Source of the DNA: Magnetospirillum aberrantis SpK
Lineage (GTDB): Bacteria > Pseudomonadota > Alphaproteobacteria > Rhodospirillales > Magnetospirillaceae
Length of the DNA stretch: 36,972 nt
Direction of reading: 5' to 3'
Assembly: GCF_011022235.1 (NCBI RefSeq)
Contig: NZ_JAAIYP010000041.1
Span: 1 to 36,972, forward strand
Shown one piece after another: positions 34,003 through 36,344 of this stretch. The notes beneath the pieces were generated by a model that did not search any database, had not been told where the DNA came from, and worked only from the letters and a program-made list of their open reading frames with translations. Position 1 is the first letter of the stretch; the number at the start of each line of letters is the position of its first letter. The position numbers and the translations under genes are program-made.

Positions 34003-35517
34003 ATGGAACGAATCGCTGCGCTTCCCCGCCCGGAATTGTTGCAGGTCGCCGACGCGGTGGCCCGTGACAAGGGCATCGACCGCGACGAGGTGCTTGAAGC
34101 CATGGAGCAGGCCATCCAGAAGGCCGGCCGCTCCAAATACGGTCACGAGCACGATATCCGCGCCCACATCGATCGCAAGACCGGCGAGATTCAGCTTGCC
34201 CGCTTCATCGAGGTGGTCGAGGAAGTGGAGAACGAGGCGACCCAGCTGCCGCTGGCCCGCGCCCTGAAGAAGAAGCCCGACGCCCAACTCGGCGATTTCA
34301 TCGTCGATCCGCTGCCGCCCATCGATTTCGGCCGCATCGCCGCGCAGACCGCCAAGCAGGTGATCGTGCAGAAGGTGCGCGACGCCGAGCGCCAGCGCCA
34401 GTTCAACGAATACAAGGATCGTGTCGGGGAAATCTCGAACGGTCTGGTCAAGCGCGTCGAGTTCGGCAACGTCATCGTCGATCTGGGCCGCGCCGAGGCG
34501 CTGCTGCGCCGTGACGAGCTGATCCCGCGCGAAACCTTCCGCACCGGCGACCGCGTGCGCGCCTATATCTTCGACGTCCGCGCCGAGCCGCGTGGCCCGC
34601 AGATTTTCCTGTCGCGCACCCATCCGACCTTCATGGCCAAGCTGTTCGCCCAGGAAGTGCCGGAAATCTACGACGGCATCATCGAGATCAAGGCGGTGGC
34701 CCGTGATCCCGGCTCGCGCGCCAAGATCGCCGTGCTCAGCCACGATTCGTCCATCGACCCGGTGGGCGCCTGCGTCGGCATGCGCGGCAGCCGCGTCCAG
34801 GCGGTGGTGGCCGAGCTTCAGGGCGAAAAGATCGACATCATCCCGTGGTCCGGCGAATACGCGACCTTCGTGGTCAACGCCCTGGCTCCGGCCGAGGTGA
34901 CCAAGGTGGTGCTGGACGACGAGAACCACGCCATGGAAGTGGTGGTGCCCGACGATCAACTGAGCCTGGCCATCGGCCGACGCGGTCAGAACGTGCGCCT
35001 CGCCTCGCAATTGACCGGCTGGTCCATCGACATCATGACCGAGGCCGAGGAATCCGAGCGTCGCAACGAAGAGTTCCGCTCGCGTTCCAAGATGTTCATC
35101 GACGCGCTCGACGTGGACGACGTCATCGCCCACCTGCTGGTGACCGAAGGCTTCTCGACCGTCGAGGAAGTGGCCTTCGTGCCGACCGAGGACCTGACCG
35201 ACATCGAAGGCTTCGACGAGGACGTGGCCGCCGAGCTGCAAAACCGCGCCAAGGCCTTTCTGGCCGAGCAGGACGAGCGCTACGACGCCATGCGCAAGGA
35301 TCTGGGGGTCGAGGACGCCATGGCCGCCATCGAGGGCCTTTCGCCCAACATGCTGGTCAAGCTGGGTCACCGCTCCATCAAGACCCTGGACGACCTGGGT
35401 GATCTGGCCAGTGACGAACTGGTGGACATCATCGGCAAGGACGACATGACCGAGGACCAGGCCAACGCCGTCATCATGGCGGCCCGCGCCCATTGGTTCG
35501 AAGACGGTCAGGGCTGA
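34003..35517 (+). CDS. nusA: Transcription termination/antitermination protein NusA
   Basis: A 504-aa NusA. The N-terminal RNA polymerase-binding domain (1-125) begins MERIAALPRPELLQVADAV; the S1 domain (about 135-200) has GLVKRVEFGNVIVDLGRAEALL; KH1 includes GACVGMRGSRVQAV and KH2 includes LAIGRRGQNVRLA. Two C-terminal acidic helix-hairpin-helix repeats follow (VEEVAFVPTEDLTDIEGF and KTLDDLGDLASDELVDI regions). The gene ends HWFEDGQG-TGA, and that end is copied in a 94-bp tandem repeat just downstream, including a variant third copy HWFEDGQA-TAA. The stop-to-start distance to ylxR is therefore 191 nt instead of a few. Confidence 0.96.
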   Translation: MERIAALPRPELLQVADAVARDKGIDRDEVLEAMEQAIQKAGRSKYGHEHDIRAHIDRKTGEIQLARFIEVVEEVENEATQLPLARALKKKPDAQLGDFIVDPLPPIDFGRIAAQTAKQVIVQKVRDAERQRQFNEYKDRVGEISNGLVKRVEFGNVIVDLGRAEALLRRDELIPRETFRTGDRVRAYIFDVRAEPRGPQIFLSRTHPTFMAKLFAQEVPEIYDGIIEIKAVARDPGSRAKIAVLSHDSSIDPVGACVGMRGSRVQAVVAELQGEKIDIIPWSGEYATFVVNALAPAEVTKVVLDDENHAMEVVVPDDQLSLAIGRRGQNVRLASQLTGWSIDIMTEAEESERRNEEFRSRSKMFIDALDVDDVIAHLLVTEGFSTVEEVAFVPTEDLTDIEGFDEDVAAELQNRAKAFLAEQDERYDAMRKDLGVEDAMAAIEGLSPNMLVKLGHRSIKTLDDLGDLASDELVDIIGKDDMTEDQANAVIMAARAHWFEDGQG

Positions 35518-35521
35518 GGGA

Positions 35522-35611
35522 ATGATGGTGGGAACCGAACCAATGGGCGCTTATCGTGTCAAATGCGCGGCTTCGCCGCGCGCCCATTGGTTCGAAGACG
35601 GTCAGGGCTGA
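35522..35611 (+). other. Micro-ORF 1, stop/start-coupled to nusA and sharing its C-terminal tail
   Basis: Four bases after the nusA TGA (35515-35517) comes ATGATG (35522). An open frame from there runs 29 codons to the second copy of the tail, reading MVGTEPMGAYRVKC from the second ATG at 35525 and ending HWFEDGQG-TGA at 35609-35611. It is tight enough to the nusA stop for re-initiation. Expression is unproven. Confidence 0.4.
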
Positions 35612-35615
35612 GGGA

Positions 35616-35705
35616 ATGATGGTGGGAACCGAACCAATGGGCGCTTATCGTGTCAAATGCGCGGCTTCGCCGCGTGCCCATTGGTTCGAGGACGGCCAGG
35701 CGTAA
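35616..35705 (+). other. Micro-ORF 2, identical start, ending HWFEDGQA
   Basis: The same arrangement recurs 94 nt later: ATGATG at 35616 follows the TGA of micro-ORF 1, and the frame ends HWFEDGQA-TAA at 35703-35705. The ylxR ATG comes 3 nt after that stop (TAAGACATG). The chain nusA, micro-ORF 1, micro-ORF 2, ylxR therefore keeps stop-start coupling throughout. Whether the peptides are made is not known. Confidence 0.4.
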
Positions 35706-35708
35706 GAC

Positions 35709-36344
35709 ATGGAGGATTGGGCCGAGGCGGATCAGCCCGGTGGACCCCAGCGTCGGTGCATCGCCACCGGTCAGGTCCGCCCCAAGGAGGAACTGCTGCG
35801 GTTCGTGGTGTCGCCGGCGGGCGAGGTCGTTCCAGACCTTGAACGCCGCTTGCCCGGCCGGGGAATCTGGTTGAGCGCGCGGCGGGATGTGGTAAATACG
35901 GCCGTGAGCAAGCGCCTGTTCGCCAAGGCGGCGCGGCGTGCGGTGACGGTGCCGGACGATCTGGCCGACCGGGTGGGCGTGTTGCTGGGGCGGCGCTGCC
36001 TGGAAGTGCTTTCGTTGGCCCGCCGTGCCGGTCAGGCGCTGTGCGGGTTCGAGAAGGTCAAGGCCGAGCTGAAGGCTGGCCGGGTGGCGGTGTTGGTGGA
36101 AGCCCGCGACGCCGCCGAAGACGGGAAAAACAAGATCCGCGCTTTGGCGTCGGGCGTTCCCGTGGTTGAATTGTTCGATGCGGTCGAGTTGGGTGAACCC
36201 TTCGGCCGTGACCAGTCGGTGCACGCCGCCCTGTCGCAGGGCGGTTTGGCGCGTCGGTTGGTGGTGGAGGCAGGACTTTTGGCCGGCTTCCGCCAGGGCT
36301 TGGTGTCGCGTCCGTCTTCCGGGGCGGCGCCCGAGTCAGTGTGA
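35709..36344 (+). CDS. ylxR: YlxR (DUF448) plus L7Ae-like RNA-binding protein
   Basis: A 211-aa two-domain RNA-binding protein typical of alphaproteobacterial nusA-infB operons. The N-terminal DUF448/YlxR domain (about 15-85) has RRCIATGQVRPKEELLRFVV and LPGRGIWLSARRDV. The second part (about 95-190) resembles an L7Ae/L30e fold with VLSLARRAGQALCGFEKV and NKIRALASGVPVVELF. Its function is not known; context suggests ribosome or rRNA binding. Start ATG at 35709 lies 3 nt after a TAA that ends the third copy of the NusA tail. infB starts 55 nt after its stop. Confidence 0.9.
   Translation: MEDWAEADQPGGPQRRCIATGQVRPKEELLRFVVSPAGEVVPDLERRLPGRGIWLSARRDVVNTAVSKRLFAKAARRAVTVPDDLADRVGVLLGRRCLEVLSLARRAGQALCGFEKVKAELKAGRVAVLVEARDAAEDGKNKIRALASGVPVVELFDAVELGEPFGRDQSVHAALSQGGLARRLVVEAGLLAGFRQGLVSRPSSGAAPESV

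Follow-up and report, generated by a model that had tools for sequence, protein, structure and literature searches.

An inverted duplication of the nusA 3′ end between nusA and ylxR in Magnetospirillum, probably a template-switch scar tolerated through stop-to-start continuity

The window analyzed here, a stretch of 36,972 nucleotides from the draft genome of Magnetospirillum aberrantis SpK (G000; 4.15 Mb in 48 contigs), contains at the junction of nusA and ylxR a tandem array in which the end of nusA is repeated in both orientations. The repeated unit carries sense and inverted copies of the nusA tail together with an open frame; it is present in four genomes, and its last copy, adjoining ylxR, is the ancestral end of nusA. 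The explanation that we consider probable is that the unit is a template-switch inverted duplication of the nusA 3′ end, which is tolerated since a micro-ORF keeps translation coupled across it.

The genes around the array are ordered rimP, nusA, ylxR and then a frame that is taken to be infB from gene order, the Pfam search having been run on rimP, nusA and ylxR. From the list of open reading frames, nusA (34003..35517, + strand; 504 aa; Pfam NusA_N, KH_5 and S1) ends HWFEDGQG-TGA inside the repeat, and, in the genome collection, Magnetospirillum provides the best named relatives of its product. The listed frame of ylxR (35709..36344, + strand; 211 aa) encodes a YlxR domain followed by a weak L7Ae-like match (E = 0.0003, 20.8 bits, below the cut-off of 22.1). 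In Escherichia coli, nusA and infB are essential. Apart from the array, a 24-bp tandem repeat of 1.9 copies (36745-36790) lies in the frame after ylxR, and a hairpin resembling a terminator, with a T-rich tail (33427-33451), lies just upstream of rimP (33494); the terminator consensus scan that gave this hairpin found 2 candidates as against 2.8 expected in shuffles.

A 94-bp tandem duplication at this junction had been described in the initial annotation, and TRF confirms it as an array at 35485-35700 (period 94, 2.3 copies, 97% matches, score 411), the top score among its five entries in the window. Unit 1 (35485..35578, + strand) and unit 2 (35579..35672, + strand) read as identical over 94 bp, and a third, partial copy extends to the TAA at 35703-35705; the copy number comes from one assembly. 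The initial annotation did not report that each unit also carries the nusA tail in inverted form (GCGCCCATTGGTTCG / CGAACCAATGGGCGC, the latter as read on the + strand in unit 1), and because of this the order within the unit is sense-antisense-sense. The inverted-repeat search places two perfect 15-nt inverted tail copies on the − strand, at 35536..35550 in unit 1 and at 35630..35644 in unit 2. By reading, a small GC hairpin, GCGGC-TTC-GCCGC, which is not in the present nusA tail, precedes each later sense copy (35567..35579 and 35661..35673, + strand), and the full order is sense, antisense, hairpin, sense, then repeated. The first sense copy (35486..35517, + strand; AHWFEDGQG and TGA), supported by reading, TRF and the inverted-repeat search, is the present end of nusA, and the last one (35674..35705, + strand) is its old end by comparison with relatives that lack the unit. 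When 12-mers in sense-antisense-sense order within 140 nt were sought in 437 kb (the window, 320 kb of the same genome and 80 kb of G018), the array was the sole site; plain 13-nt inverted repeats whose arms stand 20-60 nt apart turned up at three other places in that sample. As for known RNA elements, Rfam has no match up to E = 1 in 35200-36000, ARAGORN finds no tRNA-like element in 35300-35900, and no intrinsic terminator is predicted at the array.

Exact patterns found the unit in 4 of the 317 genomes of the order, in each case at the nusA-ylxR junction, and in a class-level draw 1 of 385 genomes matched, namely G000 itself; since the patterns are exact, diverged units would escape this search. 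Two patterns, one built on the antisense-then-sense half and the other on two sense tails, matched the same four genomes of the order, and a first inverted-repeat pattern had matched three of the 55 family genomes, G010 having escaped by one mismatch. The bearers are G000, with two units, and three genomes with a single unit each: G010 of the same genus, g1 (contig JANQAI010000005.1, locus L036), and G018 and G065 of g7, a second genus of the family. The junction itself was read in 44 of the 55 family genomes, of which 4 have the unit and 40 do not (with the unit, 2/10 in g1 and 2/17 in g7); the remaining 11 were covered by pattern only. Among named nusA loci, 80 from at least 578 relatives were examined, and L036 alone carries the unit. 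Its geometry is nearly constant: the spacing from tail to tail is 94 bp in G000 and 92 bp in the other three genomes, and the antisense piece lies 45, 43, 44 and 44 nt after the first tail in G000, G010, G018 and G065, in sense-antisense-sense order in all four.

The proposal of the initial annotation that the copy adjoining ylxR is the ancestral nusA end has been borne out by the comparison of junctions in close relatives, in which the tail is joined directly to ylxR. The nusA ends and ylxR starts of the unit-free relatives resemble the last copy: HWFEGEAGQA-TGA-GG-ATGG in the unit-free G001 can be set beside HWFEGEGGQA-TGA-GGTC-ATGG in the last copy of G010, and HWFEDGK-TAA in the unit-free G029 compares with the last copy in G018. 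The gene has thus acquired a new end in the first copy, its old end being preserved as the last. An in-frame ylxR start (ATG, GTG or TTG) lies −29 to +25 nt from the nusA stop in 37 of the 40 unit-free junctions; in the other three the script, whose search extended back only 30 nt from the nusA stop, found no ylxR start.

Between the new end and the old one, the ribosome would meet a chain of stops and starts. The gaps are as initially claimed: the nusA stop is followed by GGGA-ATG, the stop of micro-ORF 1 by GGGA-ATG, and the stop of micro-ORF 2 by GAC and the ATG of ylxR. Micro-ORF 1 (35522..35611, + strand, from the list of open reading frames) encodes 29 aa, MMVGTEPMGAYRVKCAASPRAHWFEDGQG; micro-ORF 2 (35616..35705, + strand, by reading) likewise has 29 aa when counted from its ATG and stops 3 nt short of ylxR with AHWFEDGQA-TAA; the list gives this frame from an earlier GTG. 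In each of the four bearers a micro-ORF of 29-31 aa opens with ATG and ends in the old nusA tail, and in the sequence the continuity of stop and start is kept in all four. The peptides that enter the last AHWFE copy are MMVGTEPMGAYRVKCAASPRAHWFEDGQG in G000, MTMALEPRGADCVKCAASPRAHWFEGEGGQA in G010, MRFGTSRLRTNGHYRIGMAAKPLAHWFEDGK in G018 and MFCASRVRTNEHNYIEMAAKPPAHWFEGEA in G065, the latter three being counted from ATG, with longer frames starting at an upstream TTG. From the nusA stop to the micro-ORF ATG the distances are +4, +2, −1 and +5 nt in G000, G010, G018 and G065, and from the micro-ORF stop to the next start they are +3, +4, +12 and +11 nt in the same order; the region in G065 has an additional GTG at −1. 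In a review that covers translational coupling, the best distances in E. coli are −4 to +3 nt, with weaker coupling up to about +40 nt, and stricter limits with sharp drops near +12 are given for some other species (PMC12548453). The micro-ORF offsets fall within these ranges (PMC12548453), although the gaps of +11 and +12 nt in g7 could mean weak coupling. In this comparative analysis, translation of the micro-ORFs and its coupling to ylxR are inferred from spacing. A further case is seen at the ylxR start of G010 (L036 4107-4138), where a 16-bp tandem duplication makes an extra mini-frame, ATG GAG GCC TGA, followed by GGTC-ATG; as read, this is a second duplication that preserves stop-start continuity.

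Is the encoded peptide itself maintained? When the linkers were shuffled with single-base composition kept only and with related units treated as separate, such an ATG micro-ORF arose in 8.0, 7.6, 4.0 and 1.4% of shuffles for the four units, climbing to 10-20% per unit with GTG and TTG starts allowed; the odds are modest. Linker identity is 10/18 and 8/13 between G000 and G010, below the 79% identity at 4-fold sites, and 21/32 and 7/12 between G018 and G065, below the corresponding 76%. Conservation is therefore lacking in the first half of the micro-ORF peptide, and this speaks against a functional product. Judged from their sequences, the units retain an open frame together with the former end of nusA.

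How old is the unit? Both linkers are alike between G000 and G010 and between G018 and G065 (p about 2e-4 in each case, the lowest value that 5000 shuffles allow); this likeness is partly that of nusA, because the last part of the first tail falls within linker 1, and a few bases next to the hairpin fall within linker 2. The linkers common to G000 and G010 suggest that the basic unit predates the split of these genomes. Between the genera the likeness is weak: for linker 2, p = 0.003 (G000-G018), 0.014 (G000-G065), 0.07 (G010-G065) and 0.39 (G010-G018), and linker 1 shows no likeness (p = 0.41 to 0.99). The same geometry and a two-codon insertion shared by the later copies (AA-SP or KP-x-AHWFE) point to one origin, and parallel origins in the two genera are conceivable. 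A NusA tree of 43 rows (the 44th, a short one, having been dropped) requires at least three changes of state, and 48 of 500 label shuffles are as low, so the label is hardly clustered; a single origin would require about 14-15 losses by a hand count on this tree. G018 and G065 each have a unit-free relative, at 94% and 93% nusA identity. The unit seems to have been repeatedly lost or gained. Slippage between direct repeats on either side of a palindrome offers an easy mechanism of loss.

A template switch could account for this architecture as follows. While copying the nusA tail, the polymerase would switch to the complementary strand and write the reverse complement, and would then switch back upstream, so that the nusA tail is written again. 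NusA would now end at the first copy because that copy carries the earlier stop, and the old nusA end, now lying downstream, would close a micro-ORF of about 30 codons that opens with an ATG at the new nusA stop. Ribosomes leaving nusA could still move from each stop to the next start, by way of the micro-ORF or micro-ORFs, until they reach ylxR, as the spacing suggests; the insert would be tolerated in the operon because this path remains, and not through a function of the peptide or of the RNA fold. The unit would be unstable because direct repeats surround a palindrome: its precise loss would restore the ancestral junction, and in G000 the unstable unit would have doubled. In support of such an origin, a reverse-complement copy lies beside its source together with a second direct copy, the arrangement expected of a template-switch inverted duplication, and template switching is reported to generate reverse-complement repeats (PMC8794818). 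The loop of the mini-hairpin is TTC in g1, GAA in G018 and AAA in G065, the 5-bp stems GCGGC/GCCGC being unchanged; the TTC and GAA loops would fit an inversion, but the arms measure 5 bp (7 in g1) and descent between the genera is uncertain. Inversion of a spacer between intact arms, with homogenization of the arms by template switching, is described in yeast, including ttc/gaa examples, and was observed there only with arms of over 9 bp (PMC8604942). No source of the linkers was found among the matches listed from the own genome and the 55 family genomes, the pieces of 12-34 nt giving this comparison little power. Only the second unit of G000 looks like a recent tandem copy; plain slippage of the nusA tail, as suggested earlier, does not suffice for the whole array, given the inverted copy, the mini-hairpin and a geometry of 92-94 bp that recurs in other genomes.

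Several other explanations compete with this one. It is unlikely, in our estimate, that the unit is a tiny site-specific mobile element, MIRU- or MITE-like, that seeks out the nusA 3′ end, carries a stretch complementary to this target and rebuilds the end of the gene. Such an element would explain the patchy presence against the NusA tree, the near-constant length at the same site with the 3′ end restored each time, and the linkers shared by G018 and G065, whose closest relatives are unit-free, but the exact patterns found the unit in two genera only, by the counts from order and class given above, and no copy at another site was seen in the own genome or the 55 family genomes among the matches listed. 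These other matches are 38 bp or shorter, many of those in the family being a common GC hairpin or nusA itself, in lists that run to about E = 1 with at most 16 candidates per genome scored. Outside the array, the strongest match within the own genome (L002, 34 bp, E = 0.005) looks like chance and does not make a dispersed repeat. Phages and plasmids gave nothing convincing: one phage and two plasmid records have short, weak matches (E 0.02, 0.2 and 0.8), and nine viral stretches that fit a loose pattern are dissimilar to the unit and look like chance. Import of a nusA block was also considered, and no block of G018 or G065 is nearer to g1 than to its own genus at 122-nt steps, in a comparison where identities vary widely (80-99% for G010-G006) and which stopped short of the final codons beside the unit; a brief exchange right at the junction is conceivable. 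A related idea, that a minimal selfish unit confined to the nusA 3′ end, with such a complementary segment and the ability to rebuild the gene end, bridges the operon by its own micro-ORF and comes and goes without cost across the two genera, we regard as rather improbable. Still more improbable is that an assembly error doubled the unit in G000 and that the true copy number is one: two units identical over 94 bp in a draft of 48 contigs would be open to it, but 94 bp is short relative to usual reads, and for the second unit an error is less likely than a recent tandem duplication. The basic unit is real in any case, because single units occur in G010, G018 and G065.

We are also doubtful that the unit is a selected regulator in which the micro-ORF and two mutually exclusive hairpins, 1:2 and 2:3, tune translation of ylxR-infB. 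The antisense piece is able to pair with the preceding or the following tail, and stem 1:2 has one C-G to U-A double change between the genera; nevertheless, covariation over five units does not rise above shuffles (128/500 and 500/500 shuffles reach the score for the two pairings). The units fold better than most shuffles, with z of −1.78, −2.39, −3.86 and −3.93 in G000, G010, G018 and G065 (14, 6, 0 and 0 of 200 shuffles folding as well) and −3.22 for the whole array, some of this stability being expected of any inverted repeat. The last 34 nt of the units differ at one position between G000 and G010 (P = 0.003 against 4-fold sites, in a stretch chosen after looking), but the counterpart in G018 and G065 is not unusually conserved (5/37 differ, P = 0.09). 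When the upstream RNA is held open in the model, mean access at the ylxR start goes from 0.276 to 0.258, 0.346 to 0.265, 0.386 to 0.441 and 0.261 to 0.280; with shifts of just −0.08 to +0.06, the predictions lend no support to masking of the ylxR start. The lack of conservation in the first halves of the peptides and the existence of close relatives that live without the unit likewise speak against regulation. The precedent for such a regulator is mgtQ, a proven short intercistronic ORF with alternative stem-loops between mgtC and mgtB of Salmonella (PMC8092293). Like the unit, mgtQ lies between operon genes and overlaps alternative stem-loops; unlike the micro-ORFs here, which are known from sequence alone, it has demonstrated translation and control over mgtB (PMC8092293). 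Masking of the downstream start as in mgtQ is not predicted here: access to the ylxR start stays nearly unchanged and, by this prediction, owes little to how the RNA folds.

The unit is a natural insertion between nusA and ylxR-infB that has seemingly been filtered for an open path of the ribosome from stop to start, and a termination-reinitiation relay could be tested on its four diverged natural forms, for which close relatives lacking the unit serve as controls. Among the literature searched, no title or abstract opening names this insert. The MIRU of mycobacteria, compared here by description only, is likewise a short intercistronic insert with a small ORF coupled to the neighboring gene, the insertion of which is thought to be nearly harmless; unlike the unit, it is apparently mobile and repetitive, occurs in many mycobacteria and sits at start codons with −4 nt spacing, as described in the review (PMC12548453). 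An internal small ORF apparently chained stop-to-start with the flanking genes is thus common to MIRU and to the unit in all four genomes, whereas copies at several operons were not found for the unit, which is present at a single site among the matches listed, is made from the host gene's own tail and has spacings of −1 to +12 nt. Bacterial MITEs such as RPE, ERIC and YPAL share with the unit a length of about 100-200 bp, the ability to form stem-loops and the possible presence of frames, and differ from it in forming families with many copies per genome (PMC2229807); the unit was found at one locus among the matches listed, and the direct repeat flanking it is the nusA tail itself. Tandem inversion duplications are a class comparable to template-switch and quasi-palindrome products. 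The latter resemble the unit in having a reverse-complement copy beside its source and perhaps in a loop inversion between intact stems (PMC8604942; PMC8794818), the arms of the putatively inverted loop being shorter here than in the yeast cases (PMC8604942). Unlike such products, the unit has linkers without a known source and has been retained, and once doubled, between the genes of an operon, and it would connect mutation by template switching with the way in which intercistronic micro-ORFs arise.
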